Source of the DNA: an uncultured Gammaproteobacteria bacterium | Lineage (GTDB): Bacteria; Pseudomonadota; Gammaproteobacteria; Arenicellales; Poriferihabitantaceae | Length of the DNA stretch: 64,000 nt | NCBI GenBank assembly: GCA_937992195.1 | Contig: CALKKV010000008.1 | Coordinates: forward strand, 1 to 64,000 | Reading direction: 5' to 3' | Shown: piece by piece, positions 7,926-28,444 of the stretch | How positions within the stretch are numbered: the first letter of the stretch is position 1 | Layout of the letters: each line of letters starts with the position of its first letter | Notes under the pieces: generated by a model | What the model saw: only the letters and a program-made list of their open reading frames with translations | What the model was told of the DNA's origin: nothing | The model's database searches: none | Position numbers and translations under genes: made by a program

Positions 7926-8142
7926 TGGTTTCGTCTCTGGAAAATCCGAGGACAGTTTACTCAATAGATAAAATAATACAAAGTGCGAATCTGTTATAGG
8001 AATTGATCGAAGGGGCAAGAGGTTCCAGTTGGGTCTTTCCTTATTTTTTAGTTAAAAGATACGTAACCGGGCTGTATTACCCATTGTCGAAATATAGTTT
8101 TCTCCCATATGATTCGATAATAATTCTGGTATAGAGATAAGT

Positions 8143-10293: not shown

Positions 10294-11898
10294 TCATTTT
10301 AGTTTCCTTGAGTTAGCGTGCTGCAGCGCCAGTCGATCTATCTTTCCGGTGCCGGTATGCGGTATCGCTTCGACATAGTCGATGATTCGTGGATATTTGT
10401 ATGCAATGAGTTTCTCTTTGACGAATTCCTGGAGTACCTTTGTGGTCTCTTCTGTAGCAATGTTGGCGTTCCGTAACTTGACGATAGCCCGAAGTACCAT
10501 GCGCTGATCCTCAAGGGCATGAGCAAGCACGACGCACTCATGTACGAAGGGGTGCTCGGCCAGACACCGCTCCACCTCTAATGGCCAAACCCATTGACCT
10601 GATACTTTGATCAGATCGTCGGCACGACCCTGAAAGTAAAACGCCTCATCACGTTCAATGAATAAGTCACCCGTATAGATCCAGTCGCCACGTATCGTGT
10701 TTGATGTTTTTTCCTGTTGATTCCAGTAGCAGGGCGTAGACGAATGACCGCGAACCATCATTGCCCCCTCAACACCGGCTTCGACTTTTTGCCCGTCGGG
10801 ATCGACCAATTTCACTTCATAACCAGGCACAACTTTGCCTGCAGAACTAACTCGCTTATCCTGTTCACTATTAGACAGATAGATATGCAGCATTTCTGTT
10901 GACCCAAGTCCTTCAATCGCTTCTAACCCACAAAGATTGCGCCAGGCGTTGAATACATCTTCAGACAGAATTTCAGCAGCAGATAAGCAGCAACGCAAGC
11001 TTGATAGATCATACTGACGTGCTTCTTCATAACGGCAGAGCGATGTATATAGTGTCGGTAAACCAAATAGCATTGATGGTTTATATTGTTCGATCATACT
11101 AAACACGTTTTTAGCACGCGGTTGGCCTGGCATGAGAACAGCGCAGGCACCTGCGGCAAATGGAAATGTTATTCCGTTACCAAATCCGTAGGCAAAAAAG
11201 AGTTTGGGAACTGAGAATAATCGATCTTTAGGTTTTACTTTCAAAATATGATTTGAGTAGGACGCAACGGTAAAAGCCATATCATGATGAAGATGTACAA
11301 TGCCCTTCGGGTTGCCGGTGGAGCCCGAGGAGTACATCCAGAATGCCATGCTGTCAGGGTTTGTATCTGCTGCTGGCAAATCGCCGCTCTGTTCACACAG
11401 AAAATCTGAAGCCGTTACTGCCGTTACTGCCGTTACTGCCGATACCGGCGCCTCTCCATTGACAATAACCAAGGTTTCAACCTGATCTTTCTCAAACATT
11501 TGGGCTAGGGTTGACTCGCAAACGGCAATGCGGGCTCCCGAGTCGGCGATAAAGAAATCGAGAAGGTCTTTCGTCGTTTGTGTATTGAGAAGTACTGGCA
11601 CATATCCGGCACGAACAGCTCCAAAGAATGCAGCGGGAAATGCTGGGGTGTCATCAAGGAATATTGCGATGCGATCAGATTGCTCGAGTCCCGCTGCCTT
11701 AAACGCGAGTCCCCAGGCGGACGCGCTCGCACACAGCTCGCGATATGTAAGCGTACCACTGGGGCCAGTAACAGCTAATGCGTCTGGATTGCGTTCAAGA
11801 TTATCAAACAGGATATTGGAGCAGTTGGAATGAGCAGATTTATCAAAGCCGATAGTAGTGTCGGTATGCATCGTCTTGACGGGGTCTACGATTTTCAT
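10294..11898 (-). CDS. Benzoate-CoA-ligase-family acyl-CoA synthetase
   Basis: 534 residues, the usual length of the family. The ATP/AMP-binding motif YSSGSTGNPKG is at 189-199; the hinge region DLIKVSGQWVWPLEVE and C-terminal catalytic Lys in GTGKIDR are intact. It adenylates a carboxylate and transfers it to CoA; the nearest subfamily by motifs is benzoate/hydroxybenzoate/aminobenzoate-CoA ligase. Residues about 153-163 are a VTA triplet repeat encoded by a 9-bp unit, absent from the family core. It overlaps the upstream flavin monooxygenase gene by 4 bases, which acts on aryl-CoA esters, so the two form a coupled pathway. Confidence 0.87.
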   Translation of the reverse strand: MKIVDPVKTMHTDTTIGFDKSAHSNCSNILFDNLERNPDALAVTGPSGTLTYRELCASASAWGLAFKAAGLEQSDRIAIFLDDTPAFPAAFFGAVRAGYVPVLLNTQTTKDLLDFFIADSGARIAVCESTLAQMFEKDQVETLVIVNGEAPVSAVTAVTAVTASDFLCEQSGDLPAADTNPDSMAFWMYSSGSTGNPKGIVHLHHDMAFTVASYSNHILKVKPKDRLFSVPKLFFAYGFGNGITFPFAAGACAVLMPGQPRAKNVFSMIEQYKPSMLFGLPTLYTSLCRYEEARQYDLSSLRCCLSAAEILSEDVFNAWRNLCGLEAIEGLGSTEMLHIYLSNSEQDKRVSSAGKVVPGYEVKLVDPDGQKVEAGVEGAMMVRGHSSTPCYWNQQEKTSNTIRGDWIYTGDLFIERDEAFYFQGRADDLIKVSGQWVWPLEVERCLAEHPFVHECVVLAHALEDQRMVLRAIVKLRNANIATEETTKVLQEFVKEKLIAYKYPRIIDYVEAIPHTGTGKIDRLALQHANSRKLK

Positions 11899-13049
11899 GC
11901 TCGCAAGCCTTTCTGATCATAAGCGCGCATAAAGCCTGGGGAAAGCCTGCGAAGTCGATCTAAGTCCATACGACCAGATCTTGTAATGTAGTCAAAACAA
12001 AAGTCGAGAGGAGCGAGGCCCATTTTACTGGCAAACGTTTCATACCATTCTGCAGATGTGTTTGCAGCGGTCACAATCTTGCCAGCGATCGGCTTGCGCG
12101 TTTCTTGATAATCTTTCAGGGCGTCTGAAATATTCTTTCCTTTGCGAAGCGATTTGGCCAGTGCTATTGCGTCTTCCATAGCAAGGCGCGTGCCCGATCC
12201 AACTGAAAAATGTGCTGTATGAGCACTATCACCGATCAGCACACGATTCTGGTCGATCCAATTTTCACACCACATCCTTGGGAAACACCGCCACTGAGAT
12301 TTGTTTGTTATCAATGCAGCGCCGTCCAATGTCTCTGAGAAAATTTCCTCGCAGAGTTTCGCTGAGTCTTTTTCGTTCATGCCTTCAAAGCCGTGGGCCT
12401 GGAAGCTCGTTGGATCGCATTCCACAATAAAAGTGCTCATCGCAGCTTGATATCGATAATGATGGGCGTTTACTGCACCGTATTTGGTCTTAAGAAATGT
12501 TTGGGTCAGTGTCTCAAACGGCTTGTTTGTCCCGAACCAAGCAAAGTGGTTACTGAACATAGACATTTGAGGCGCAAATGATGCTGTGTTTGATTGCCGC
12601 ACCGCCGAGTTGATTCCATCAGCACCGACAATTAGATCGGCACTTAGCGTTGCTACATCGTCAACAGTCATATCGAAAATAACTTCAACGCCTTGCGCCT
12701 CAGCACGCTCGGTTAACAGGTCGATTAGTTGTAATCTGCCAATAGAAGCGAAACCAATACCGTCAATAATAATCTCTTCTCCTCGATGGACAAGGGTCAT
12801 GTCTTGCCAGCGCTCCATGTGGGGAGTAATTATTGCGTAGGTTTCAGGATCATCTTTTTTTAGAAAATCCATCGCTTGAGAGGAGAACACAACACCAAAG
12901 CCAAATGTTGCACCGCGGGGGTTTTGCTCTAGCACACGTACCTTAGAATGAGGGCGATCGCGTTTAAGAAGCTGAGCCGCGTATAAACCTGACGGCCCCC
13001 CACCAATGACATCAATTGACTCTAACTTAACCAATTTGCGAGTTCTCAA
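11895..13049 (-). CDS. FAD-dependent aryl-CoA monooxygenase (salicylyl-CoA 5-hydroxylase / 2-aminobenzoyl-CoA monooxygenase-like)
   Basis: 384 residues. FAD-binding GGGPSG at about 16-21, DLIVGADG (DG motif) and IGDSAHTAHFSVGSGT (GD motif) define a class A flavin monooxygenase. The segments TFGFGVVFS, GIGFASIGR and AHFSVGSGTRLAMEDAIALA are characteristic of the branch that hydroxylates salicylyl-CoA or dearomatises 2-aminobenzoyl-CoA. Directly upstream of and coupled to a benzoate-CoA-type ligase, which supports a CoA-thioester substrate. The start is a TTG (13049 or 13034); no ATG or GTG is usable, so the N-terminus is uncertain by a few residues. Confidence 0.85.
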   Translation of the reverse strand: MRTRKLVKLESIDVIGGGPSGLYAAQLLKRDRPHSKVRVLEQNPRGATFGFGVVFSSQAMDFLKKDDPETYAIITPHMERWQDMTLVHRGEEIIIDGIGFASIGRLQLIDLLTERAEAQGVEVIFDMTVDDVATLSADLIVGADGINSAVRQSNTASFAPQMSMFSNHFAWFGTNKPFETLTQTFLKTKYGAVNAHHYRYQAAMSTFIVECDPTSFQAHGFEGMNEKDSAKLCEEIFSETLDGAALITNKSQWRCFPRMWCENWIDQNRVLIGDSAHTAHFSVGSGTRLAMEDAIALAKSLRKGKNISDALKDYQETRKPIAGKIVTAANTSAEWYETFASKMGLAPLDFCFDYITRSGRMDLDRLRRLSPGFMRAYDQKGLRA

Positions 13050-13308: not shown

Positions 13309-14271
13309 CTACTTCCTATAAGCAAACGCCTTGCCAAAGCGCCAAATCAAATAGTCGCCACAGCTAATCGCAGGCTGTTGTGCGATGTAATCAGCTCCAT
13401 AGATATCGCGCGCATCAACGGGTGTTTCTGGTTCAGGATCGAACGCCAGCACCAGCGACAATCGCTCACGCCCAGAACGATTCACCACTCGGTGTGGCGT
13501 CGATTTATAAGCGCCATCTGTCCAACGATGTAGCAAATCCCCTACATTCACTAGAAGCGTACCCGCAATTGGTGGTGCGTGGATCCATTCTCCATCGACA
13601 GTCTGTACCTGTAAACCACCGATCTCGTCCTGGTATAATACGGTCAATACGCCAAAGTCGGTGTGTGGTCCGACACCAAACTGCTCCGCACCGAGGGTTT
13701 CATCCTGAGTGGGATAGTACACAAAGGAAGCCCGGCTCAACGGTTGATCACAGAAACGTAGAAAAAAATCTTCTTCCAGCGACAACCCGAGCGCTAAGCC
13801 TCGCATCAGATAATGTGCAACGGTTTGGGCATGGGTAAAATAAGCCATCGCTGCCGCTTCCATACCGTCAGGTTGCTCAGGCCATTGATTGCTTCCGCGC
13901 AACGGATGATCTTGCGGCGTTTTGCCTGCTGCGTTTTGATAACCCCAGATAAAACTTTCTTTGAGATCAGTGCGCGCATCATCTTGCATCTTTGCACCGC
14001 CCAGTCCCAGCCAGCCGCGATGTTGTTCTGATATCGAAACTTTCGCTTTCTGCTCGCTGTCTGCGCGGAAAAATTCCATCGCGACATTGCGCGCAGCGTT
14101 GATAACCGAATCTGGAATACCATGGCCGTTGACATAGATGAAGCCGAGATTTTGACTGGCAGCGTGTAATGCTTGGGCAACCTGGTGTGGAGCGCTACCA
14201 TTGCGCAGCGGACTGATGTCTACGACTGGAATGGCTGTCGGGTCAAATTGTTTGGCCTCAGCGTAGACCAT
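13309..14271 (-). CDS. Isopenicillin-N-synthase-like Fe(II) oxygenase (2)
   Basis: 320 residues, ATG start. Begins with the DIOX_N-type IPVVDIS segment and has the full iron site H203-x-D205 (GPHTDFGVLT), H260 (TPHRVVNRS) and R270-x-S272 for 2-oxoglutarate. Soluble cytoplasmic oxygenase. It follows the CMD-like gene by 11 bases, so both are probably in one operon (14870 to 13309). It is a paralogue of the oxygenase at 9267 but divergent in sequence. Substrate unknown. Confidence 0.87.
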   Translation of the reverse strand: MVYAEAKQFDPTAIPVVDISPLRNGSAPHQVAQALHAASQNLGFIYVNGHGIPDSVINAARNVAMEFFRADSEQKAKVSISEQHRGWLGLGGAKMQDDARTDLKESFIWGYQNAAGKTPQDHPLRGSNQWPEQPDGMEAAAMAYFTHAQTVAHYLMRGLALGLSLEEDFFLRFCDQPLSRASFVYYPTQDETLGAEQFGVGPHTDFGVLTVLYQDEIGGLQVQTVDGEWIHAPPIAGTLLVNVGDLLHRWTDGAYKSTPHRVVNRSGRERLSLVLAFDPEPETPVDARDIYGADYIAQQPAISCGDYLIWRFGKAFAYRK

Positions 14272-14282
14272 GGCTTGTGTTT

Positions 14283-14870
14283 TTAAACTTTATCATCCGA
14301 GCTATAGTAACCCACAATATCGCCGTCAGTCGTCACACCCAAACCGTTCAAACAACGGTTTACATAATTAAAATATCCGATAATTTGATTGGCTTCAAGA
14401 ATCTCGCCATCATCTATCCCCGCCGATTTCAATTCTTCGACATCGGCTTGCACCATCTCTCCAGGTCGCAGCGTCAGCTTTTCGGTATAGCGCAACAGCG
14501 CAAGTTCCGCACCATCAAATATAACTTCTGGCGTGCGCGCCCTTAAAGCTGCCTCAACTTTATTCGCTTTAACATCATCTCCCATCAGGTGTTTGGCGTT
14601 CGACCAGTGATTCGCCAGAGAATAAGGGCAGTCATTTAGCATTGAGACATAGGAGCTGATAGTTTCCTGAAACCACATAGGGATGGTGTTTGCATCATCA
14701 TGTAATGCTGCCCGGTATAGCACCACATGACCGCGCATGGTATTTGGCCGCAGCGAGTGCACACGCATAACATTATCGACAGTGCCGTGGGGTGTGCGCG
14801 CTAGTTTTAGTACGTCAAGCAGTTCCTTACTGGCATTCTCATCGTCAATCATTTTTATCCAGGCCGCCAT
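14283..14870 (-). CDS. AhpD/CMD-like protein lacking the CxxC motif (1)
   Basis: 195 residues, all-helical in character. It resembles peroxidase-related carboxymuconolactone-decarboxylase-fold proteins: a central helix with NDCPYSLANH followed later by ILEANQIIGYFNYVNR, the usual end of the fold. The canonical C-x2-C-x3-H is reduced to C81-x6-H88, so AhpD-type disulfide peroxidase chemistry should be impossible. Start ATG 14870. Operon with the oxygenase at 13309 and divergent from a paralogue at 15025. Function unknown. Confidence 0.75.
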   Translation of the reverse strand: MAAWIKMIDDENASKELLDVLKLARTPHGTVDNVMRVHSLRPNTMRGHVVLYRAALHDDANTIPMWFQETISSYVSMLNDCPYSLANHWSNAKHLMGDDVKANKVEAALRARTPEVIFDGAELALLRYTEKLTLRPGEMVQADVEELKSAGIDDGEILEANQIIGYFNYVNRCLNGLGVTTDGDIVGYYSSDDKV

Positions 14871-15024
14871 TTGGTGAATTCCTCATATACGCGAATAGAG
14901 TTTACGAAGAATAACCGATATATAGGTCATTGAAAATTCACGCCTAGCGTTGCAAGCTGAATCAAGAAATAACGAGATTATCACGGCATAATTGAATATC
15001 TTTCACATTGAAGGCCGTTATTTA

Positions 15025-15675
15025 ATGTCTAATTTTACAGATATAGCTTCTACAGATATTTGCTGGATCAAGACTAGGCAGCAACCTGAGCCGTCGGATC
15101 CACTTTATAAAATGTACGAACAGGTCGGTGCTGCTCATGGAAAAATCCATAATCTCTATAAGGCATTCTCACTGCAACCCAAACCACTGATCGCTGCCGA
15201 CCGGCACTATCGGGATGTTTTGCATAACAGTGAAAATCATTCTCCACCCTGGCTATTGGAGCTGTTGGCATCTCAAGCAGCAGTGATTGCAGAATGCGAC
15301 TACGCATTAGCTAATCATGGCGCTAACTTTGCAACACTATTGGGAGATAAATCTAAAGCAGAAAAGATGATGCAAGCGGTAGAAGCGGATAATTTTGATC
15401 AGCCTCAATTGTTTACGCAAAAACAGTCGGCGATATTGAAATTTGGCGCCAAACTATGCCGAACTCCAGAAAACATGACATCTGACGATATCGATAAGTT
15501 GCGCAATGCCGGCGCGAGCGACACTGAAATTTTGGAGTCGGTTCAGGCCACCGCTTGCTTTGCCTATTGGGTACGTTTTATCAACGCCTTGGGGATTCAA
15601 CTAGGAAATGAATCGGTGGGCCTGTTTGACCAACAGGGAAACCGCAGTACAGGAGAAAACACTGACTCAACCTAA
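15025..15675 (+). CDS. AhpD/CMD-like protein lacking the CxxC motif (2)
   Basis: 216 residues from the ATG at 15025, which follows AAGG; an in-frame upstream start at 14992 is less likely. Paralogue of the divergent gene at 14283: it shares CDYALANH (C91, H98), a GDKSKAEKMM segment matching GDDVKANKVE, and the ILES...YWVRFINALG end. As in the paralogue, the second redox Cys is missing. Its end overlaps the convergent MttB-like gene by 9 bases. Confidence 0.75.
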   Translation: MSNFTDIASTDICWIKTRQQPEPSDPLYKMYEQVGAAHGKIHNLYKAFSLQPKPLIAADRHYRDVLHNSENHSPPWLLELLASQAAVIAECDYALANHGANFATLLGDKSKAEKMMQAVEADNFDQPQLFTQKQSAILKFGAKLCRTPENMTSDDIDKLRNAGASDTEILESVQATACFAYWVRFINALGIQLGNESVGLFDQQGNRSTGENTDST

Positions 15676-17106
15676 CAAGCTGTGCAGGCGTTCTTTTACT
15701 CTAGCTTGCATATCCTTTCCGCCGGTTTCCATCCATGCTTCTGCATCGGATCGTTCGGAAAGCTTTGGATACCAGCTTTCCGTTAGATAGCGATCTTGCG
15801 TGTGAGCATCAGTTAAAAAAGCATTGCTGGGGATTGCTCTTTCCATCACCTCAAGAGCCAGTGTTTCTGAACTCACTTCTATCCCATTCGCCATTTGAGT
15901 CACCCAACCCACCATCTCATCACACAGTACAAGTAGCTCCAGTGACCCTGTTCTGCCTCCAGATAAAAATCCGAGGTTATGCACAAACGGAGTTTTTGCC
16001 ATTGCCGCGATAGCAAGATTCGCACCGGTTTCCGCCGCTGCCTGGGCGTCAAACTGATGCGAATCAGAACAGCCGGCGCCAACCCATGAGGGAATGCCAA
16101 CCGAGCGAAAATAGTCACTTGCTCCCAACCCAGCCATCATATATTCCGGCGAACCATAGGCGAGATTAGCTTGCCGCAGGTCCATCGGCAGTATTGCCGA
16201 ACCACTTAATACTGGCGCACCGGGTTCGGTGAGTTGATGAATGACGATGCCAGCGATGGCTTCTGCAGAAGACTGCGCGATGGCTCCAGCGATTGAGATC
16301 GGGCTCGACATACCGGGAAACGTTGCCGGATAACACACCACCGGGGTTCGCCAGCGAGCGCAATTGATTAAGCGTGCACAAAGTTCATCGGGAAGTCGAA
16401 GTGGTGAAACTGGACCAAGCAGCTCAATGGAAATCGGTTTTTCTGCCAGACGATTCCAGCCACCTGTTATGTCGGCAATCTGCTGCATCATACGTACTTG
16501 AATCACGTCGTCATGGGCTAGAAGCGCAGCAGGTTTCTCGCAGTTCTCAAACATCGTTTTGACTGTTTCGATCACCTCATGTTCAGGATCGACTTCGCTT
16601 GGATAGCCGAGCGAGCACACCATATCGAGGTTGGGTAGCTGTTGACAAACCTTGGCGGTTTCCTTGATATCCGCAAGACTACAAGGGCGCAACTCATCGG
16701 TACGAAAGTCGAGAATACGGACGCAGTTGTGCCCAGGGCAAAAGCTCGAAGTCTTACTCGAGGTATCGACGCGAACATTGCCGCTTTGGTCGTAAAGAAC
16801 AATACGATCAGGCACAGTGGAGATTGCTCGTTCTACCAGATCAGGAGGGAAGTGTACGAAGCCATCGTCGGTTTGATGGCAGCCGTGATGTTTGACTAAC
16901 AGGTCCCGCGCTTCCTTAAGTTCGATTTGCGCCCCCACTTTCCAAAGAATCGTGGTAACGGTTTCATGAATTTTACGCGCGTTATTTTGTTCTACAAGCT
17001 CCAGTGAAACGCGTTGTGCTCGCTTGTCGCCTTGTCTGACTGCATCTTCTTTACGTGCAGCTCTAACTGACTTGCGCCTAGACTGGTGTGGTTTTCGTTG
17101 TGGCAT
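15667..17106 (-). CDS. MttB-superfamily (non-pyrrolysine) methyltransferase
   Basis: 479 residues, TIM-barrel type. Long basic N-terminus (SRRKSVRAARKED), then conserved-looking segments of the trimethylamine methyltransferase superfamily such as GHNCVRILD, GLGASDYFRSVGIPSWVG and LSGGRTGSLELLVLCDEM. There is no in-frame amber codon, so it is a non-pyrrolysine member, the group that includes glycine-betaine and other quaternary-amine demethylases that methylate a corrinoid protein. No corrinoid protein gene is in the window. Lies 69 bases after a family-5 binding protein and is probably co-transcribed with it. Confidence 0.8.
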   Translation of the reverse strand: MPQRKPHQSRRKSVRAARKEDAVRQGDKRAQRVSLELVEQNNARKIHETVTTILWKVGAQIELKEARDLLVKHHGCHQTDDGFVHFPPDLVERAISTVPDRIVLYDQSGNVRVDTSSKTSSFCPGHNCVRILDFRTDELRPCSLADIKETAKVCQQLPNLDMVCSLGYPSEVDPEHEVIETVKTMFENCEKPAALLAHDDVIQVRMMQQIADITGGWNRLAEKPISIELLGPVSPLRLPDELCARLINCARWRTPVVCYPATFPGMSSPISIAGAIAQSSAEAIAGIVIHQLTEPGAPVLSGSAILPMDLRQANLAYGSPEYMMAGLGASDYFRSVGIPSWVGAGCSDSHQFDAQAAAETGANLAIAAMAKTPFVHNLGFLSGGRTGSLELLVLCDEMVGWVTQMANGIEVSSETLALEVMERAIPSNAFLTDAHTQDRYLTESWYPKLSERSDAEAWMETGGKDMQARVKERLHSLLG

Positions 17107-17175: not shown

Positions 17176-18768
17176 TTAACTATTCATCCACCAGCGTTCA
17201 AGCAGTTTGTAACCGTCAAACTCCCAGTTGCCAGCAACTTGTTCAGGCGCACCGACGTTTCCGTTATGCGCTGAAATATGGTTTGCAAAACTATGTACTA
17301 CGGAACCACAATCATCCCGGCAGATAGCCTGCATTTCGTAGTACATGTCGCGTCGTTTGCTGTCGTCCAGCTCCGCTCTTGCTGCGACTAGCAACTTGTT
17401 GAATTTTTCATTCTGCCAGTAGGTTTCATTCCAGTTCGATTCCGCAGAATACCCCTGGGTGAACATCCAGTCTTCGGTTGGTCGACCACTCCAATAACTT
17501 GCACTCCAGGGATGCTTCAACCAGACATCTGACCAGTAACCATCGTCGGGTACTCGGTTCGGAGTGATTTCAATTCCAGAGCTCTTCGCATGCTCACTGA
17601 ACAAGACAGCAGCATCTACTGCACCCGGATACAAACCATCAGATGCACTGAGTTTTACTTTGAGAGTACTTAAACCGGCTTGCTTCAAATGCCATTTGGC
17701 TTTCTCTGGATCGTACTGCCGCTGTTCCAGTTCAGCATTGAAGAAGCGGTTTGCCGGGGAGATCGGGTGATCGTTACCAACGATTCCATGACCGCCCAAG
17801 ACTTTTTCCAGAATTTCATTTCGATCCATTGATAGCTTTAGCGCCATGCGCACATCATTGTTATCAAATGGCGCAAGATCTGTGCGCATTGGGAAGGTGT
17901 AATGCTGGGTTCCGGTGACATCCAGTACCGTGATATCACCGTTACGTCCTAGCAGCTTGGCGGTGTTTGGATCAACGTCACCGATAACATCCACAGCGCC
18001 CGTAACCAGAGCGTTTTGTCTGGCGGTGGAATCCGCGATGGTCAGTATTTCAGCAGTATCCACAAAGGCGCGATCGTTGAGGTAGAAATTGCCATTCTTC
18101 TTCAATTTAGAAAGTTGACCCGCCTCAAACGAATCGAGCGCATAGGAACCACATCCAACATCATACTCGGTTACCTTACCGTCTTTGGAAGGCAAAATTG
18201 AAAGCGAGCTTGCACTCAAAATTACGGGAAAATCTACACTGGGTGATTTCAGCTTTAGTTTGACTATATAGTCACCGTCTGCGGTGATGCTGGTCACTTC
18301 CTCCATAAACGATTTCATCGCAGAAGCTGAATCTTCACCCTGGTGACGCAGCAGTGAAGCGATAATATCTTCCGAAGTTACAGACTTGCCGTTATGGAAC
18401 TCAACACCTTTGCGTAGCTTGAAAACCCATTCTGATGAATCGGTGCCATGCTCGTATGACTCAGCAAGCATTGGTTGAAGCGATCCGTCGGAAGCCACCT
18501 CGGTTAACTGACTGTGAATAGAATAAAACAGAAAGTTGGTGTGGCCACTGGTCGTTTGGATTGGGTCCAGTGAATCGGTAGTTGAGCCCTGAACCGTGGC
18601 AACTCGAAGATGACCACCAGTCTTTGGTGAAGCGGCGACTGCCTGGGTACTGGTTAATGCCGCCGGTAAGGCGGCGGAGAGCCCTACTAGCCCAGCATGT
18701 TGGAATAGTTCGCGCCGTGAGATTTGGCCTTTTTCAAACAGAGACAACAGTCGTTGTAAGGTATTCAT
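17176..18768 (-). CDS. Family-5 (peptide/opine/nickel type) ABC solute-binding protein, Tat-exported
   Basis: 530 residues, the usual size of DppA/OppA-type binding proteins. The N-terminus has a twin-arginine signal (ISRRELFQHAGLVGLSAAL) ending TQAVA|AS. The mature part begins GGHLRVATVQG and has the typical AESYEHGTDSSEWVFKLRKGVEFHNG stretch split over about 100-130. The ATG at 18768 follows AGGAGG in reverse orientation. No cognate permease or ATPase is nearby, so it is an orphan. It may capture a quaternary amine or dipeptide for the MttB-like enzyme encoded downstream. Confidence 0.87.
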   Translation of the reverse strand: MNTLQRLLSLFEKGQISRRELFQHAGLVGLSAALPAALTSTQAVAASPKTGGHLRVATVQGSTTDSLDPIQTTSGHTNFLFYSIHSQLTEVASDGSLQPMLAESYEHGTDSSEWVFKLRKGVEFHNGKSVTSEDIIASLLRHQGEDSASAMKSFMEEVTSITADGDYIVKLKLKSPSVDFPVILSASSLSILPSKDGKVTEYDVGCGSYALDSFEAGQLSKLKKNGNFYLNDRAFVDTAEILTIADSTARQNALVTGAVDVIGDVDPNTAKLLGRNGDITVLDVTGTQHYTFPMRTDLAPFDNNDVRMALKLSMDRNEILEKVLGGHGIVGNDHPISPANRFFNAELEQRQYDPEKAKWHLKQAGLSTLKVKLSASDGLYPGAVDAAVLFSEHAKSSGIEITPNRVPDDGYWSDVWLKHPWSASYWSGRPTEDWMFTQGYSAESNWNETYWQNEKFNKLLVAARAELDDSKRRDMYYEMQAICRDDCGSVVHSFANHISAHNGNVGAPEQVAGNWEFDGYKLLERWWMNS

Positions 18769-19441: not shown

Positions 19442-20551
19442 CTAAACGCCAATATCTGCGCTTTTCTCAAACAACAGATGCCCGCTATCAATGCGCCGAA
19501 TCAATTCTTTATTGTCGGATCGTTGTAACCAACAGAATTCGCCGTCTCGCCAAAAGCACTGATCGTCTATCCACACAGAGGCATTAAATATTGACCATGT
19601 AATTTCTCCAGGTGGTGTTTTGCCAGCGGTGTGGAAATGTAAATACCTGGGACTGCCAAAACTGATTGCCCCCCAGGCCTTTAAGTTTTGATCTACATCC
19701 TCGGAGAAAAAGGTCAGAGGATTAATTCCAGCATGCCACGAGTGGATATTTGTCTCGGTTACTCCCAATGCTGTTGAAACATCGGAAACGTAACGCTCAA
19801 TTTTCTTAACCGATTTTTCATCGCCATCCAGCGACGCCAAAACGCCTTCGTGCACTTTTGCGAATACGGTATCGTCAAAGCGAATCGCTTCAGGTCCCAC
19901 CTTTACTCCGGCACTGGGCATCATCCATCTTGACAATGCGACGATGCCGTTGGCGGTGGGACCTGGGACTGGCTTGAACGTTGAAACAGGGAACAGTTTC
20001 ATCGTGAAGTCATCATCGCGCCCTCCCCGAAGACTCGGCCAGTCAAACTCTCCTGAAAGATCCGTCCCCAGCGGGCATTGAATTTTCCAGCGCTTGGCTG
20101 AAGTCAACTCCTGTTCAAGACGACCATGCAATTGAGACATCAGCGTATAAGAAAGCGCGGCGTAAGGTGAATCGAGCAGTGTCATTTTGCGGGCATAATT
20201 AATCGTCACTACGCCATCTCCCATCATGGGAGTAAATCGCAGATAGTCTCCTACCCGACTTAGAAACAAGGTGTGGTCGGCGCCTCCCATTGCTCTTGCC
20301 AAATCCTCTGGAAAATCCTCAGGACGCGAAATGATGGTTGGTCGGATTTGCGTGACCACCGCCTGCTGTCTCGTCAGGTAAGCTTCAATCGCGTTGGAAA
20401 CATCGGCATCATAAAAAAGCTGGCCCTCGGGCTCCAACACCAGTAACACGCGATCACCTGGTCTTACGCCCATACATTCGTCAACTAGATTCCGGATTCC
20501 CTGCAGGCAGTCCTTGGCAAAGCTGTTTGTCTTATTTGAGGGTTTCAGCAT
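19442..20551 (-). CDS. M29 aminopeptidase / NicX-like protein (tentative)
   Basis: 369 residues. Features recalling the M29 metallopeptidase fold, shared by 2,5-dihydroxypyridine dioxygenase NicX, are VRPGDRVLLVLEPEG near the start, CPLGTDLSGEFDW at about 159-171 and a C-terminal His/Asp cluster (H270, H273, H305, H307, D329, D330). The usual H-x-D near the end reads W-I-D-D here, so metal binding may differ. It starts 16 bases after the PhyH gene and is the third gene of an operon with two Fe/2OG oxygenases, which makes a dioxygenase or hydrolase acting on their product plausible. Function not established. Confidence 0.5.
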   Translation of the reverse strand: MLKPSNKTNSFAKDCLQGIRNLVDECMGVRPGDRVLLVLEPEGQLFYDADVSNAIEAYLTRQQAVVTQIRPTIISRPEDFPEDLARAMGGADHTLFLSRVGDYLRFTPMMGDGVVTINYARKMTLLDSPYAALSYTLMSQLHGRLEQELTSAKRWKIQCPLGTDLSGEFDWPSLRGGRDDDFTMKLFPVSTFKPVPGPTANGIVALSRWMMPSAGVKVGPEAIRFDDTVFAKVHEGVLASLDGDEKSVKKIERYVSDVSTALGVTETNIHSWHAGINPLTFFSEDVDQNLKAWGAISFGSPRYLHFHTAGKTPPGEITWSIFNASVWIDDQCFWRDGEFCWLQRSDNKELIRRIDSGHLLFEKSADIGV

Positions 20552-20567
20552 AATTGCAGTGAAAAAA

Positions 20568-21383
20568 TCAGGATGAAGACCACACCAGAGGAAATGATGT
20601 GTGAATCATTTCATCTCCTGGCATCAGATTGACTTCTGCATATGGCGGTGAAGTCTTCCAGGGTCGTGTGGCAAAACGCGCATCGTCACCTAGCCAGCGG
20701 GTGGAAAACCCACGACGTCTCGATTTTAATCCCACTGTTGCAGGGGCGCCATGAATCGTGCGCATATGAAAAACGATACAGTCACCCGGCTGTAAATCCC
20801 AGGACAAAACCTCATAGTGTTCACGGTTTGCATCAATATCAGGAATAGTTTCAAAGCCATCGTGACCGTCCGCGTAGTTGCTATGGTCTACAAACAGCCG
20901 CGGGTAGTAAAGTGTTCCAGTGGCATGAGATCCCGCAATAAACTCAGGGCATGCCGATTGCGGCACCGAATCCAATGGCAGCCAGATGGAACACAATTGA
21001 TTACCATCTACGCCATAGTAGGGCAGGTCATGATGCCAGGGCGTGACTTCGCGAGTTCCTGGCTCTTTTACCAACACATGCTCGTGATAGAGGCGGGCAG
21101 ATTTTGATTGTGTAAGTCTGGCGGCGATTTCTGCAGCAGGGGATTGCATAACGAAATCCCGATACTCATCAATTCGCGACCAGTTGCAGTAGTCATCGTA
21201 AAATCCGCCCGGCTCTCCCTCGGACGTATAATATGAATGACTTGGGCCCGGGTCGGCAAAGTTTTTTTCTAGTCCTGCCGATAGTCGATCCAGCCACGAT
21301 TGCTCAAACAAACCGCGCAGGCAAACCGCGCCTTTTGTTGCAAACTCTTCAATGAGAGACGATGAAACGAGAGAATCGCTCAT
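20568..21383 (-). CDS. Phytanoyl-CoA dioxygenase (PhyH) family oxygenase (2)
   Basis: 271 residues. H117-x-D119 (PWHHDLPYY), distal H211 (TIHGAP) and an Arg cluster (SRRRGFSTRW) that would bind 2-oxoglutarate. The GDCIVFHMRTIHGA strand is typical of PhyH. Overlaps the upstream HalD/BesD-like gene by 4 bases, so translation is coupled. It differs clearly from the PhyH protein at 1360. Substrate unknown. Confidence 0.87.
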   Translation of the reverse strand: MSDSLVSSSLIEEFATKGAVCLRGLFEQSWLDRLSAGLEKNFADPGPSHSYYTSEGEPGGFYDDYCNWSRIDEYRDFVMQSPAAEIAARLTQSKSARLYHEHVLVKEPGTREVTPWHHDLPYYGVDGNQLCSIWLPLDSVPQSACPEFIAGSHATGTLYYPRLFVDHSNYADGHDGFETIPDIDANREHYEVLSWDLQPGDCIVFHMRTIHGAPATVGLKSRRRGFSTRWLGDDARFATRPWKTSPPYAEVNLMPGDEMIHTSFPLVWSSS

Positions 21384-22213
21384 AACGAGGTCGACGTGCC
21401 GACGGATTCTTCACCGGTTCTTCCCCAAAACAATTTCCGAACCGACGCACTGTTTTTCATTTCCGGCTGTTCACTATAGCAAAGCACAGGTACCAGTCTT
21501 GGCTGCTGACCGGAGACGCGCGTGACACGGTGGATCGTTTGCCGCCCGCCAAAGATCAACAAAGTGCCAACGGTGAAGGGAAGTTCATGCACGCCATCTC
21601 GCTCGCCGTTTAAGACGTTCTGAACAATTTGCTTCTCATCGGCGGATCCTCGTATCAATGGAACATACTCAAATGCACCGCCTTCTTCAGGTGCCTGGAG
21701 CATTAGCGTGACGGTGAATTCAGATTCGTCAAAATGCCAACCATGTTCTCCACCCTCGACAAATACATTGACAGAACAGGCGCCCAGAGGGTCGGCGAAG
21801 TGATGCAGCGTCTGTTTTCCAAGGACTATCCTGATAAATTCTTTTAAAGGATCCCAGAGATAGAGAGAGCGTAGTCGCGTATCAGCACCGATTCGATCAT
21901 AGGGTACTGACCCGACAAAAGTATGCTCTTGTTGACGCTCGACCCCGCCTTCCTGATACGAATCATCATCGTCGGTCAGATACGCATTGTGGGTACTTTT
22001 GCAGAAGAAGGCCTGGTGGCTAAATTGATTAACTTCTTTTGCAAGTTGATCCAAAGCTTCTGCTCGAATAAACCCGGGTAGGATACACAGGCCCTTGTCA
22101 AGATACTGTTGTCGACATTCTTTGGTAAACAACAGACCCGCTTCCGAGGTTAACTGATCTAGCGGGTATCGCTCGGTATCTACCAGATTTTGTGCTTGAA
22201 GAGATTGAGACAT
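21380..22213 (-). CDS. HalD/BesD-like Fe(II)/2OG oxygenase with intact HxD
   Basis: 277 residues from the ATG at 22213, preceded by CGGAG. The core HGWHFDESEFTVTLMLQ, then GGAFEY and later TIHRVTRVSG...RLVPVLCYSEQP, is the pattern I associate with the HalD/BesD group, whose best-known members chlorinate free amino acids. In the halogenases the Asp of HxD is Gly; here H160-x-D162 is complete, with H228 and R239. That predicts a hydroxylase, not a halogenase. First gene of an operon with PhyH (2) and the M29-like protein. Confidence 0.72.
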   Translation of the reverse strand: MSQSLQAQNLVDTERYPLDQLTSEAGLLFTKECRQQYLDKGLCILPGFIRAEALDQLAKEVNQFSHQAFFCKSTHNAYLTDDDDSYQEGGVERQQEHTFVGSVPYDRIGADTRLRSLYLWDPLKEFIRIVLGKQTLHHFADPLGACSVNVFVEGGEHGWHFDESEFTVTLMLQAPEEGGAFEYVPLIRGSADEKQIVQNVLNGERDGVHELPFTVGTLLIFGGRQTIHRVTRVSGQQPRLVPVLCYSEQPEMKNSASVRKLFWGRTGEESVGTSTSL

Positions 22214-22344
22214 TCGCCAACTCCGTAAAGGCAATTCGTCATAGTATCCTGTATTCTAAGCAAATCCTAACATTTTCTAGTCGAAAAATTGGGATTAAAG
22301 GGGCAAGAGTTTGAGGCGGAGGAAGGGTGAAGAGGGCGCGATAT

Positions 22345-22577: not shown

Positions 22578-23705
22578 CTATCCAAGATCTATATCGCTAC
22601 CAAGTCGGCTCGCCATATAGCGATACATATCAACAATGGGGCCTTCGAGGTGTTCATTGGAAAACGGGCCAGGGACGAAGTAATGCGACTGCAGACCTTT
22701 TTGCATTGCTTCGAGTTTGACTTTGTCTTCCGCGTTGACCAGATTCATAAAGTCTCTTTGATCTTTAGTGATGCCTTCTGATTGCGGTAAAGAAGACATG
22801 CCCCAACGAACGTTAACGGCATTGTTTGTTTTCGGACTAAGGCACAGGTAGATTAAAATGTTTGGCGCTGCTGCAGCGACCAGATTTGGAAACACACCAA
22901 ACATAAAGGAGCAACGTTTTTCTTTTTCAGTCAGGTTGGGCGGAAATGGTCCACGTTCCGGGTAGTTGGGGTCATAGTAAGAATAGTAGGCATTAAATTG
23001 TCCGTCTGACGGAACGTATTCGCATAACCCGCTGGGTGTCAGCGGATTTAACGTGGTTGGATGTGTTGCATCCAGATGGTAGCCTTCCATAAAATTTTCA
23101 GCCAGACATTTCCAGTTGGTTTCCCAACTGGTTTGTTCTGTGAAACCATGCGCTCTATCTGCGACGTCATAGTTTTCAAGGTAGGGCATCAAGCTGCTTA
23201 ATCGAGGAGCGAGCGGGTCGGCATTTCCATCCAGATTGACAAATAAAAAGCCGAGCCAAATTTCAGTTTTGAAAGAGGGCAGTTTGCAGCTGGATTGATC
23301 AAACGCTTTGACCTTCGACATAAGTGGTGCGGCGACAAGCTCGCCATCTAAATCATAAGTCCACGCGTGATAATTACAAGTAAAACGGGAGCGGTTGCCG
23401 TGGCCGCTTGCTACGATGTTTCCCCGATGTCGGCAAACGTTCGACAACACACGAATCTGGTCATCTTTTCCGCGCGTGACCAATAGCGGTTCACCTACTA
23501 ATTCAGTGGTGTAGAAGTCGCCGGCTTGCTTGAGTTCATCAGCGCGGCCGAGACATACCCAGTCGCGACGAAACACGTGATCCGACTCAAGCTGTAAAAA
23601 ATCATCCGAGGTGTAATAACTTGCAGGCATCACCTTTACTTTCTCGAAAGGCAATGATTTTCTTGTGGTTAGATTCTCTCGAATATTAGTGACTACCTTA
23701 TTCAT
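22578..23705 (-). CDS. Rieske non-haem iron oxygenase, alpha subunit (3)
   Basis: 375 residues from the ATG at 23705. Rieske ligands C91-x-H93 ... C110-x2-H113 (CRHRG, CNYHAW). Iron-site segment NWKCLAENFMEGYHLDATH gives H210 and H215, with Glu (E207) at the bridging position as in the other two. The C-terminal part is standard for the alpha subunit. No beta subunit, ferredoxin or reductase is nearby, so it probably uses an unlinked reductase, as single-component-type quaternary-amine oxygenases do. Confidence 0.87.
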   Translation of the reverse strand: MNKVVTNIRENLTTRKSLPFEKVKVMPASYYTSDDFLQLESDHVFRRDWVCLGRADELKQAGDFYTTELVGEPLLVTRGKDDQIRVLSNVCRHRGNIVASGHGNRSRFTCNYHAWTYDLDGELVAAPLMSKVKAFDQSSCKLPSFKTEIWLGFLFVNLDGNADPLAPRLSSLMPYLENYDVADRAHGFTEQTSWETNWKCLAENFMEGYHLDATHPTTLNPLTPSGLCEYVPSDGQFNAYYSYYDPNYPERGPFPPNLTEKEKRCSFMFGVFPNLVAAAAPNILIYLCLSPKTNNAVNVRWGMSSLPQSEGITKDQRDFMNLVNAEDKVKLEAMQKGLQSHYFVPGPFSNEHLEGPIVDMYRYMASRLGSDIDLG

Positions 23706-24298
23706 GTTAAGTACGGAACAATTCTTTCGATAAAAGCTTTCAATTATATTCGTACCCGTTCTTACATTAGATGCGCGGAGCGCGTTACCAAGTCTTCTAA
23801 AATACACTAAATTTAGAGTTGAATGAAACTGTTTAGAGGAGTGTTTTATCTATAATGCTTGATCTGCGAAGGCCAGATAACCGTTTCCGGTGGAAGGGAT
23901 TGAATGCCCGCATGCACCCGGCAGCAAATATTTTGGCTTTTCCAGAGCTGATTATGTCTGGTTAAAACGTATGCGATGATTTGCACCGACATACTGAGTC
24001 CGTTGATGTGGACAACGATCACCTTTTTGCTGGAGATATGATTGTCGTCGATCTCTTGAAATCGGTGGATTAAAAAGTAATGACCGCAGGCGTTTGCTAT
24101 TTGTGCATTCACCCAAGTTTGACAAGCGGGATAGCGATCTTCTGATTGGAATACAGAAATTTAATTATTAGCGGTTAGAATTTTATATATACTAAACTGC
24201 AAAACGCCTCAGGGCTAATGAAATAAGGATAGGCTTTCATCTCACTGACTAAGTTCGCAACGAGATCGTAGCTCGACCTAAAATTTGTATTGACCTAA
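23706..24298. other. Gene-free stretch with an unassigned short frame
   Basis: On the minus strand, about 23846-24160, a frame reads protein-like (RYPACQTWVNAQIANACGHY ... SSKKVIVVHINGLSMSVQII), starting at a GTG at 24112. I recognise no family and see no ribosome-binding site. It may be the 3' fragment of a decayed gene. The right end must hold the promoter of the gene at 24299. Confidence 0.35.
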
Positions 24299-27200
24299 AT
24301 GATTCCTAGTACAGCCGCTCAAAAATTAAGTTTGACTGTTGCAGTCATTTTATATCTGCTTACTCACCCAAACAGTTATGCAGCAGAGTATCCGCCTAAT
24401 ATTGATTATGGACAGCAAGGTGATTTTATTGCAAAACGTGGTGTTGATCGCGGCAGAACTGCCATTCTTGCGCCGATTGGCCCAATCTTATTAAACCTCC
24501 CTGAGTCACCTGGCTCGTCGGCAAAAAATGTGGATCTTAGTGTCATTGATACTGCCTGGAATCTTGAAGATTTAACCAACCCACAATTAATTGGTCCATT
24601 TAACTGCGACAACAATGGTAATAACTGTACCAATGGTCATGGTATTCATGCGCATGGCGTTTATACCCGTTTTGTCAACGGCAGAGGTTATCTAAGGGGG
24701 AACTTTCGCTATCAAGAAGGTGGGTTTGCATTTTATGATCCATCTCAACCGAGCCTGTCACAACAAATTCGTAGGAGTGAAAATATTGGAAACCAGGTCA
24801 GTCGCGGCTTGGGCTACGGTGCTTTGACATCCCGCTATACAGCGAATGATTACTGGTCATACAACCCTGATCAATTAGATGACCCGCAATTATTAACTTC
24901 GTTTGGCTCGAATATGACACCAGCCGAACAAGCTAAGATAGCTGCTCTGGGTTATGCGAATGAATTGCCCGTATGGCTGGGTAACCATGAATCAGATGTC
25001 TGGGATCACGTGCAATTAACAGGAGTCACCGGCTTCCCGATTTTCTCAGGAAACTTAATGGTGTTTGCATCAGATCAGTTAAACACCGGTATGGCGATTT
25101 ATGATTTATCGAATATGGACAGTAATAATCCCCCTGAATTGTTGTCGATATTCAAGCCAGAGTTGACAGAACCAGGCGGCAGGAACGTTGGTCTTGGAGG
25201 GTATTGGGTTGAGCCTTATGGTGGCAATAAAGTAGCGTTTTTAAACCGCCGAAATTCCTCGCGAGACTATCCAGCCTTCTACATTGTGGATTTCACTGAT
25301 CCACGTGATCCCGAATTAACTTGCGAACTTTATTTTGATCAAGATGAAACCTCGACGCAGGACGGTGACTTTCATACCAATCCGCAGTATGTGAACTTTC
25401 AAGATCAGTATGCCTATGTTGATCACATGAAAATCGATATTGAAGGTTGCGAAACGGCGTATGCTGCAGCGAAAGCCGGCAATCCAAATCATATATTTTC
25501 ATCGAGTGAAATTACCGCATTTACCTTCAAGTTCCCCGATACACATAACTATTGTGATAGCAGCCAGTATTTCCGACCGCTCGGACAGGTTGGTATTTTT
25601 GGGGGGTATGATTTGGGGCCAGAGTATTTCGTTACTTTAGATCGGGCGGTACCAGAAACCGATGTCGGCTATTACACCTGGTATGTAAACCAGCGTACGA
25701 ATCAAGGGGCAAGTTTATCCTCCAGTCATGCTGCAAATGTTTATGGGGTTGATCGTGATTCCAGTTGGCAAGTTGGAGATACACTGCGCGGGCCTGGGGG
25801 AAGCCAGTATCAAATTGTTAGTATAAGTCGAGGTACGGAACAAGCAAACTTCCAGGGGATGTGCTTTTTTGTAACTGACAATGAGCCCGATACCAGAGCG
25901 CCCTATGTGTCCGGACATCGTCCATTGGCGGACCAGACAAACGTTGGTGTTAATACGATGATCCACCTACATATACCGGAAACACTGCGGTCGGAAACCG
26001 TTGCAAATGCGATCAGGTTAATCCGTTTGGATACCAACGTTGAAGTCGCTATTGAGCATCAGTTAAGTCACACTGGCACGATCGCTGTATTTCCAATACA
26101 GGAGCTGGCACTGGATGCGAGCTATCGTGTTGAGGTGTCGGGTATCCAAGACTTTATGGGTAACACTATGTCTCCCTATAGTTTTACTTTTACAACTGGT
26201 GATACCGTCATCGTCACTCCTCCGCCACCAGGGGACGAGCCGGCACCCACATTCACAGGCGTCCCATACTATCCCAACCAGTCGAGTCAGCTCGCGTGTT
26301 CGCCAGAGAGTGTGGCAAATAATTTATGGGCGGTAAATCCAGATAATGATTTGGTTTCGATTGTTAACACCGAGCATGATCCAAATTTCGAATTAAGTGC
26401 CTCATTGAGCAACAACATTAGCAATCAGTACGAGCATCCAAGTAGTATCAGCCGCGTTGGTCAGCGGTATGTCGTTACCTATCGTGACAGTGATGTGGTT
26501 GTTGTTTACAACTCAACTGGTGTGATTCACCGTGTTATTAGGACCGGCTATGGAACGCAACCCATTAGCTCGGTAGCAGATAGTAACTATCTCTATGTCA
26601 GTTTATATCGGAAGGGTGTGGGTCGCAGTAGCACGGGTGACACAAGCCTCGGTCAATTTGGCGAGATACTGAAAATACGGATTAGCGACTATCAAATCGA
26701 GTCAAGATTGGCGGTAGGTCCAACACCAAAAGGCATGGCATTGCGCGGTAATAGGTTACTGGTAACGCGTTTTATTAGTCCAAATACCCACGCAGAGATC
26801 TATGACATAAACACATCAAACTTGAGTCTCACGCGAACTATTCGAATTAATAAGCTCACGGTGCCAGATGATCTTGATCATGGATCAGGAGTTCCCAATT
26901 TTTTGAACTCTATTGCCTTTTCACCTGATGGCACACGCGCATATGTTGCCGCAGTAAAGCAAAATGTTGATAACGCGGAGCTAGATGATGACAACACCGT
27001 TAGGCCGATGGCGGCAATTATTGATTTGGTGAACAACCGGGATTTGAACCAGAATCCCGCTACACCAGTTGGGACACTTGATTACGACAATGCTGCTGAT
27101 CCGCAGTTTTTTAGTTACCTGGTGAATGGTGATCAGGCGGTAGTGTTTCAAGGAAACAATGCGGTGAGAGTGTTTGATGCAGATCAGGGGAGTCAAGCGG

Positions 27201-28444
27201 TGTTTAATACTGGCTTTGCGCCGCAGGCATCTTGTTCTACTTTACGAACCTTGTATGTAAAGAATTTTACAGATCGTTCTGTGAGTGCGATCGATGTTGC
27301 TGAATGGATGCATGATGGGGAATTGAACCCGAGCGTGGTTAACATACCGCTTGTACAAGCGGAAGACGATACACTCGAAGAAGATGAGTTAGCGGGTCTT
27401 AAGCTCTTTTATCATTCCGAACAACCTATGTTCGGAGAGGAAGGTTATATCAGTTGTGCAAGCTGTCATATGGGTGGAGGTCATGATGGCCAAGTGTGGA
27501 ATATGACAAGTTTTGGTGAGGGTTTGCGAAATACTTTGTCTTTGAACGGTCAGTCAGGTACGCGTTTTGGAAATTTGCACTGGACCAGCAATTTTGATGA
27601 GGTGCAAGATTTTATTTTGCAAATTATTAATCTGAACAAAGGAACTGCCGATGTAGATTCTTTTGATGCCAATCGTGACCCGTTGTTTGTTAGTACAACG
27701 GGTTTATCAAGTAAAATAGATCAACTTGCTGCCTATATAGAAAGTTTGGGTAAGGATACTGTTCGCCGTTCTGTCGTAAAAGGTGGCGGTGGTGCAGCCC
27801 GTCAACGGGGAGAGCAACTCTTTTACGATCGAAATTGTGCGAGCTGCCATGCTCCACCCGCTTTTACCGATGGGAATTTACATGATGTTGGAACAGGTTT
27901 AGAAATACGTACACCCCGGCTAACTGAGTTAGCTGATTCTGCACCTTATTTGCACGATGGCAGAGCTGCACAATTAACAGATGTGTTTTCCAATGGGACA
28001 ACACATATCAATCATACTTCGGGATTGTCCGCTCAGCAACGTGGGGATTTAGTAACGTATCTTTTGTCCATTGACAAAGGGAACTTTATCTCGGATTCAG
28101 CGATATTCACTGGCCTTCCATCTTTTGTCGGTCAGTTTGGCGCTTTGATTACGTTACCCGCTGACGAGAGTGAATGGCAAACATGCGCTGAGCAAAATGA
28201 GATTTGTGAGGTGCCGGAAGGCGCCACGATACGCTATGGTGCCAACGGGGTTTATCACTATCTGCACGATCAATCTGGGTCGGTGGATTGTAGTGATGAC
28301 AGGTTTGGCAATGCAATTTCAGGAGCAATCAAGCAATGCGAGTTTTTCAATCCTATAGTTACTGAGATCGCTGAAACGGATGATGGGCTTTTTTGTATAC
28401 CGATTAAAGCGAAAACTGGTCCGCCTGTGTTGATTTGTCTCTAA
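24299..28444 (+). CDS. Giant secreted dihaem protein with propeller-like and Ig-like domains
   Basis: 1381 residues with a signal peptide of about 29 residues (ending SYAA). Residues about 50-480 contain LVIVD-like repeats (VIDTAWNLEDLTNPQLIG, MAIYDLSNMD, YIVDFTDPRDPEL). About 535-640 is a bacterial Ig-like domain (DTRAPYVSGHRP ... SYRVEVSGIQDFMGNTMSPY). About 660-1010 is a second propeller-like region. The C-terminal part carries two haem c motifs, CASCH at 1053-1057 and CASCH at 1180-1184, with RNTLSLNG and PYLHDGR segments as in cytochrome c peroxidase/MauG proteins. A short Cys-containing tail follows. It probably acts in the periplasm or on the cell surface in redox chemistry; the substrate is unknown. 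It appears to be transcribed alone. Confidence 0.72.
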   Translation: MIPSTAAQKLSLTVAVILYLLTHPNSYAAEYPPNIDYGQQGDFIAKRGVDRGRTAILAPIGPILLNLPESPGSSAKNVDLSVIDTAWNLEDLTNPQLIGPFNCDNNGNNCTNGHGIHAHGVYTRFVNGRGYLRGNFRYQEGGFAFYDPSQPSLSQQIRRSENIGNQVSRGLGYGALTSRYTANDYWSYNPDQLDDPQLLTSFGSNMTPAEQAKIAALGYANELPVWLGNHESDVWDHVQLTGVTGFPIFSGNLMVFASDQLNTGMAIYDLSNMDSNNPPELLSIFKPELTEPGGRNVGLGGYWVEPYGGNKVAFLNRRNSSRDYPAFYIVDFTDPRDPELTCELYFDQDETSTQDGDFHTNPQYVNFQDQYAYVDHMKIDIEGCETAYAAAKAGNPNHIFSSSEITAFTFKFPDTHNYCDSSQYFRPLGQVGIFGGYDLGPEYFVTLDRAVPETDVGYYTWYVNQRTNQGASLSSSHAANVYGVDRDSSWQVGDTLRGPGGSQYQIVSISRGTEQANFQGMCFFVTDNEPDTRAPYVSGHRPLADQTNVGVNTMIHLHIPETLRSETVANAIRLIRLDTNVEVAIEHQLSHTGTIAVFPIQELALDASYRVEVSGIQDFMGNTMSPYSFTFTTGDTVIVTPPPPGDEPAPTFTGVPYYPNQSSQLACSPESVANNLWAVNPDNDLVSIVNTEHDPNFELSASLSNNISNQYEHPSSISRVGQRYVVTYRDSDVVVVYNSTGVIHRVIRTGYGTQPISSVADSNYLYVSLYRKGVGRSSTGDTSLGQFGEILKIRISDYQIESRLAVGPTPKGMALRGNRLLVTRFISPNTHAEIYDINTSNLSLTRTIRINKLTVPDDLDHGSGVPNFLNSIAFSPDGTRAYVAAVKQNVDNAELDDDNTVRPMAAIIDLVNNRDLNQNPATPVGTLDYDNAADPQFFSYLVNGDQAVVFQGNNAVRVFDADQGSQAVFNTGFAPQASCSTLRTLYVKNFTDRSVSAIDVAEWMHDGELNPSVVNIPLVQAEDDTLEEDELAGLKLFYHSEQPMFGEEGYISCASCHMGGGHDGQVWNMTSFGEGLRNTLSLNGQSGTRFGNLHWTSNFDEVQDFILQIINLNKGTADVDSFDANRDPLFVSTTGLSSKIDQLAAYIESLGKDTVRRSVVKGGGGAARQRGEQLFYDRNCASCHAPPAFTDGNLHDVGTGLEIRTPRLTELADSAPYLHDGRAAQLTDVFSNGTTHINHTSGLSAQQRGDLVTYLLSIDKGNFISDSAIFTGLPSFVGQFGALITLPADESEWQTCAEQNEICEVPEGATIRYGANGVYHYLHDQSGSVDCSDDRFGNAISGAIKQCEFFNPIVTEIAETDDGLFCIPIKAKTGPPVLICL

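Follow-up and report, generated by a model that had tools for sequence, protein, structure and literature searches.

Three closely spaced genes in the 64,000-nucleotide stretch of marine bacterial DNA analysed here (the window) raise the question of whether they serve one dedicated catabolic pathway and what the last of their products does. Betaines, homarine and trigonelline are N-methylated compounds through which much carbon and nitrogen circulates in the sea. To our knowledge, many steps in the breakdown of such compounds have no assigned gene. One of the three products, named X369 here for its 369 residues, has some 400 relatives encoded in species genomes. With members that recur beside demethylases and importers, yet are annotated as hypothetical, this family offers a specific candidate for one of these steps.

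Arrangement of the gene cluster

An earlier note on this DNA had described tightly coupled genes for a HalD-like protein, a PhyH protein and a NicX/M29-like protein. This arrangement was confirmed on the minus strand (Table 1): according to the ORF calls, the stop of the HalD-like gene and the start of phyH share 4 bp (21380-21383), and a gap of 16 bp (20552-20567) separates the stop of phyH from the start of X369. A promoter scan gave no signal above chance. Homologues of all three proteins were found at 28-82% identity across many genomes and they are thus genuine genes, beyond doubt.

Table 1. Positions of the genes of the 13.3-22.2 kb cluster in the window and of the remnants found in a congener (genome G002)
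Feature	Position	Strand	Remarks
IPNS-like 2OG oxygenase (IPNS)	13309-14271	minus	Pfam PF14226/PF03171
CMD2, second peroxidase-related AhpD/CMD-type protein	14283-14870	minus	TIGR01926 over cut-off
CMD1, peroxidase-related AhpD/CMD-type protein	14992-15675	plus	TIGR01926 over cut-off
MttB-superfamily (non-pyrrolysine) methyltransferase (MttB)	15667-17106	minus	Pfam PF06253, E 5.7e-79
SBP_bac_5 substrate-binding protein of an ABC importer (SBP5)	17176-18768	minus	Pfam PF00496, E 9.2e-63
X369	19442-20551	minus	complete ORF
PhyH	20568-21383	minus	complete ORF, 271 aa
HalD-like protein	21380-22213	minus	277 aa from ATG; alternative TTG start possible at 22234
Decayed remnants of X369, mttB and cmd1 next to an intact phyH gene	L045:9034-9642 (G002:C105)		

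The three genes form one end of a cluster in the order IPNS, CMD2, CMD1, MttB, SBP5, X369, PhyH and HalD, in which CMD1 alone is encoded on the plus strand. The remaining members of the cluster are found with X369 in other genomes as well. Orthologues of SBP5 (64-73% identity; loci L031, L032, L034 and L036) and of MttB (66-70%), which has glycine betaine methyltransferase among its PDB relatives, occur in other X369 clusters, and orthologues of CMD1 (59-66%) adjoin X369 elsewhere. Close relatives of these three window proteins flank X369 in Arenicellales-type genomes and in genome G013. CMD2, with AhpD proteins among its PDB relatives, has orthologues of about 72-79% identity next to X369 (L037-L044). 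It adjoins X369 in other genomes, among them the congener G003, as a CMD2-IPNS pair in which the oxygenase shares 63-69% identity (L037-L040). The substrate had been supposed to be imported. This is plausible, since there is an SBP5-type gene 0.7 kb downstream and several X369 relatives have SBP5-ABC genes beside them.

Next to the CMD2-IPNS pair, a gene of the benzoate-CoA ligase family (TIGR02262 over cut-off) overlaps one for an FAD monooxygenase that resembles the N-terminal half of salicylyl-CoA 5-hydroxylase (10294-13049). By their sequence matches, the two are possibly an aryl-CoA hydroxylation pair.

The two hydroxylase-type oxygenases

Both Fe/2OG-type oxygenases of the earlier description were recovered with Pfam models. 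The HalD-like protein matched PF23169 (E 5.5e-17; 62 bits against a cut-off of 26) and its nearest PDB relatives are HalB/HalD. Its iron triad H160, D162 and H228 was present in 22 of 22 aligned sequences (the window protein and 21 homologues), with the HxD in the motif GWHFDE. In halogenases of the HalD/BesD family, Gly replaces this Asp (HxG) and leaves a halide site on the iron. The window protein shares the Pfam HalD family with the HalD/HalB/BesD halogenases and the lysine hydroxylases (7U6H, 7U6I, 6NIE), but differs from the halogenases in its HxD. The site is therefore of the hydroxylase type, and the motif points to an amino-acid-type hydroxylase rather than a halogenase. A function as halogenase was ruled out by the HxD in all aligned homologues.

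PhyH matched PF05721 (E 2.1e-25) and kept its triad H117, D119 and H211 in all 25 homologues. Its closest solved relative is MysH (9C9N), a 2OG dioxygenase of mycosporine-like amino acids, with an E-value of 3.7e-35 compared to 2.7e-8 for the runner-up. Both proteins have the HxD...H iron motif, but identity is low over 248 residues and the genes around the window protein do not make up a mycosporine biosynthesis cluster. The likeness may serve as a lead toward the kind of substrate, namely amino-acid conjugates.

In another family of the order, orthologues of the HalD-like protein (about 60-64% identity; L175, L176, L177 and L179) are accompanied by arginase-family genes, a triple RidA-domain protein, a desaturase-like gene and SelO. 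This company hints that the HalD of that family may act on a guanidino or amino-acid substrate.

Predicted fold of X369

X369 itself gave no match to Pfam, even at E 10, nor to NCBIfam, nor to PDB sequences when searched with the single protein or with a 17-row profile. Its structure was modelled with AF2 from an alignment of 63 relatives (pLDDT 93, pTM 0.90). Foldseek ranked NicX first (E 1e-13) and M29 second (E about 1e-9), as the earlier note had expected for the fold. Over 301 residues, the model superimposed on NicX with Z 24.2, an rmsd of 3.3 and 12% identity. The fold is shared over the whole chain with this 2,5-dihydroxypyridine 5,6-dioxygenase (PDB 7CUP, 7CN3). The M29 aminopeptidases (AmpT 2AYI, AmpS 1ZJC, PepS 4ICR) reached Z 16-17, with AmpT at 17.3. 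Both groups were far above all remaining matches, which included CgnE/CgnB of crocagin biosynthesis (Z 10-11). The alignment of the X369 profile with a NicX profile by hhalign had a probability of 96.6 and an E-value of 7e-10 over 293 columns; the NicX query sequence was letter-for-letter that of PDB 7CN3 over 350 residues.

The modelled fold of X369 is hence clearly nearer to NicX than to M29. Separation from plain aminopeptidases, a check proposed with the original observation, was borne out by this ranking, and PF02073 (peptidase M29) matched neither X369 nor any other protein of its genome. X369 as a plain aminopeptidase was ruled out by motif and fold ranking together with the missing Pfam match. 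A broader hydrolase reading, in which X369 has inherited M29-like metal hydrolysis, cleaves an amide, N-formyl or ring amide and relies on the oxygenases only to prepare its substrate, is unlikely, although to be taken seriously. It draws on M29 as the second-best fold; the closer fit to NicX and the lack of an M29 match speak against it.

Putative metal site

Peptidases of family M29 bind metal with an HxD near the C-terminus and an upstream Glu. In X369, H273, H305 and H307 are invariant in 63 of 63 relatives. Position 316 is Glu in 54 of these, Asp in 7 and Asn in 2. At position 318, Ala, Ser, Cys, Thr and Asn occur, but never Asp. The iron ligands of NicX are H265, S302, H318 and D320 (PMC7910607). 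Two aligners agreed in placing E316 of X369 on NicX H318 and T318 on D320. MAFFT put H307 in the column of S302 and H305 on a conserved His of M29, numbered 345; both residues lie on the preceding strand of X369 (predicted 303-308). With hhalign, H273 fell on NicX H265 via a gap of 2 residues and was offset by two residues without the gap; it is located on the strand that bears H265, either at the equivalent position or two residues further along.

In the X369 family, S302, H318 and D320 of NicX are thus replaced by His, by Glu/Asp/Asn and by Ala/Ser/Cys/Thr/Asn, respectively. Because these ligands are not kept, the O2 chemistry of NicX is not transferable to X369 by homology, and the replacements ruled out X369 as a true NicX orthologue. 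The comparison with M29 was two-sided. H305 shares a column with a conserved M29 His, which agrees with inherited hydrolysis, but the M29 HxD and the upstream Glu, which aligns with the column of NicX H265, are not kept in X369 (alignment with M29 member L138; conservation in 63 relatives). By alignment, the HxD metal motif common to NicX and M29 is lost in X369. We infer a rebuilt site of three His instead, with Glu316 as possible fourth ligand. If this site is true, one fold supports the chemistry of peptidases, of two-His-one-carboxylate dioxygenases and of three-His enzymes.

Distribution and neighbourhood of the X369 family

A scan of the genome contigs with the single X369 sequence found nothing, whereas a profile search of species-representative genomes yielded 399 loci encoding relatives. 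All relatives with public annotation are labelled hypothetical, and no description of the family was found in literature on the homarine operon, NicX relatives and N-methylproline demethylases. X369 occurred in 25 of 194 related genomes (including its own genome and the remnant in G002). Throughout a Pseudomonadota-wide sample of 398, it was convincing in only 3 other genomes, all of one family. In the window genome (G000), X369 is the sole member of its family.

Neighbours were counted at 73 loci on the named genome contigs, up to 8 kb away from X369. CMD/AhpD-type peroxidase-related proteins were the most frequent (37 of 73 loci; 28 of the 49 loci flanked by 5 kb or more on each side), followed by VanA-type Rieske oxygenases (26). 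SBP3 was present at 17 loci, SBP5 at 14, and SoxA and SoxB of the sarcosine-oxidase type and any MttB at 13 each. Creatininase was counted 10 times, PhyH 9 times and HalD 6 times. At 16 comparison loci of HalD or PhyH orthologues, no CMD relative was found. The context of X369 is that of N-methyl-compound catabolism, given its CMD, VanA-Rieske, sarcosine-oxidase-type and MttB neighbours. GST genes were also among the neighbours and might recall the cis-trans isomerisation of ring-cleavage products. As regards hydrolysis by X369, creatininase and AstE/AspA-type hydrolases are often near it, which fits a hydrolytic route; these neighbours could, however, already perform the hydrolysis themselves.

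In the tree, the window protein belongs to a clade of 12 rows (98% SH-aLRT) together with HalD/PhyH-linked proteins from Granulosicoccaceae. This clade lies inside a larger half with the MttB/SBP5-linked proteins, and the other half is mostly VanA-linked. The substrates probably differ by clade, as the company does (MttB/SBP5 versus VanA/SBP3/Sox).

Relation to homarine catabolism

The VanA/Sox-linked clade might act in the pathway of homarine (N-methylpicolinate), opening the pyridine ring at C5-C6 on the way to N-methylglutamate; the window protein would then be a sister enzyme acting on this N-methylated heterocycle or a similar one. NicX cleaves its pyridine ring at C5-C6 (PMC7910607), and by chemical reasoning the same cut, with C6 released as formate, would yield the skeleton of N-methylglutamate. 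A role of Mgd in homarine catabolism is reported in PMC13390433, which cites Ferrer-Gonzalez et al. 2026, and R. pomeroyi depletes homarine quickly (PMC12817926). At 13 of the 73 loci, X369 has SoxBDAG/Mgd-type genes beside it; the neighbours are the same on plasmids of Ruegeria, Leisingera and Paracoccus, where X369 is annotated as hypothetical. Nevertheless, we consider this assignment improbable for several reasons. The Sox-type subunits may equally belong to sarcosine oxidase, X369 is confined to one family in the other Pseudomonadota sampled (3 of about 397), and in the window cluster MttB and 2OG oxygenases take the place of VanA-Rieske and Sox. Mgd/Sox-type genes flank a different X369 clade, and the window cluster is without them.

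Outside the cluster, the window genome has two soxA genes and many GcvT-domain oxidoreductases, with 40 matches to TIGR01372 in all. It is rich in N-methyl-compound metabolism.

Separability of the HalD-PhyH pair

The earlier note had taken it as plausible that the three gene products act in sequence, by hydroxylation and then ring opening or amide cleavage. One dedicated pathway of the three was not supported. HalD and PhyH are adjacent in genomes G009, G029, G089, G098 and G106, in which X369 was not found. In G002, of the same genus as the window genome, X369 is in pieces with stops in two frames. Next to it are fragments of mttB (43 residues) and cmd1 (36 residues), but PhyH is intact; HalD is split by one frameshift, possibly an assembly error. 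These remnants are a natural loss of the X369/MttB/CMD module. From the pairs without X369 and this joint decay, X369 appears to belong with MttB and CMD and not with HalD-PhyH. The trio is, for the same reasons, composite and part of the larger cluster, which also encodes the importer protein SBP5, MttB, CMD1, CMD2 and, as a third 2OG oxygenase, the IPNS-like protein.

The pair and X369 could even be functionally unrelated, a mobile or flexible locus having placed the hydroxylases beside the MttB/CMD/X369 module. Pairs in genomes devoid of X369 and the survival of PhyH in G002 are what this would predict. We regard it as quite unlikely, given the operon-like packing in the window and the recurrence of the linkage. 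All three genes are also linked in Granulosicoccaceae-type genomes (L047; L048, L050 and L052, the latter three with a CMD and a GST gene in between), and X369 is again linked to HalD in L047 and the L048-L052 clade, as well as in L041-L044, where the HalD is a more distant one. Taken together, the original observation, the fold, the oxygenases and the linkage elsewhere stood, and the reading as a single pathway was weakened.

Proposed function

The best explanation of the whole is a catabolic cluster at 13.3-22.2 kb with X369 as its O2-using, cleaving enzyme, a reading we hold tentatively and with somewhat less than even confidence. The cluster would take up and degrade a compound that resembles an amino acid or a betaine and is probably N-methylated. 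X369 would be a metal-dependent enzyme on a NicX/M29 scaffold with, most likely, Fe(II) held by H273, H305, H307 and usually Glu316. It would most likely use O2 to cleave a ring or a C-C or C-N bond of a hydroxylated, N-methylated substrate. HalD and PhyH, presumably 2OG hydroxylases and a conserved pair of their own, may feed this reaction or merely share the cluster. In the presumed order of steps, they and the IPNS-like protein would supply hydroxylations, as VanA-Rieske or IPNS seem to do elsewhere, and MttB would take off a methyl group. The fit of SBP5, MttB and CMD1 in the window argues for this explanation and the variation at position 316 weakens it. X369 may instead hydrolyse its substrate in the manner of M29 or use a metal other than iron.

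A bolder extension is that X369 represents a new class of marine ring-cleaving non-heme iron dioxygenases with a three-His (plus Glu) site on the NicX/M29 scaffold. Its members would open phytoplankton-derived N-methylated heterocycles or betaines, partnered by hydroxylases that can replace one another (Rieske, IPNS-like or HalD/PhyH). This is rather doubtful at present. The family is a so far unnamed variation on a known fold, and the role predicted for it is plausible.

Further genes in the window

Three alpha subunits of Rieske oxygenases (6792-9270 and 22578-23807) partially resemble glycine betaine monooxygenase GbcA; for the one at 22578, carnitine monooxygenase is the nearest in the PDB. 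The product of 37795-39195 resembles methanethiol oxidase MtoX, well below the cut-off (130 of 650 bits). An exported-looking protein of 1381 aa (24299-28444) combines a Big_5 domain with a C-terminal cytochrome c/MauG-like domain.
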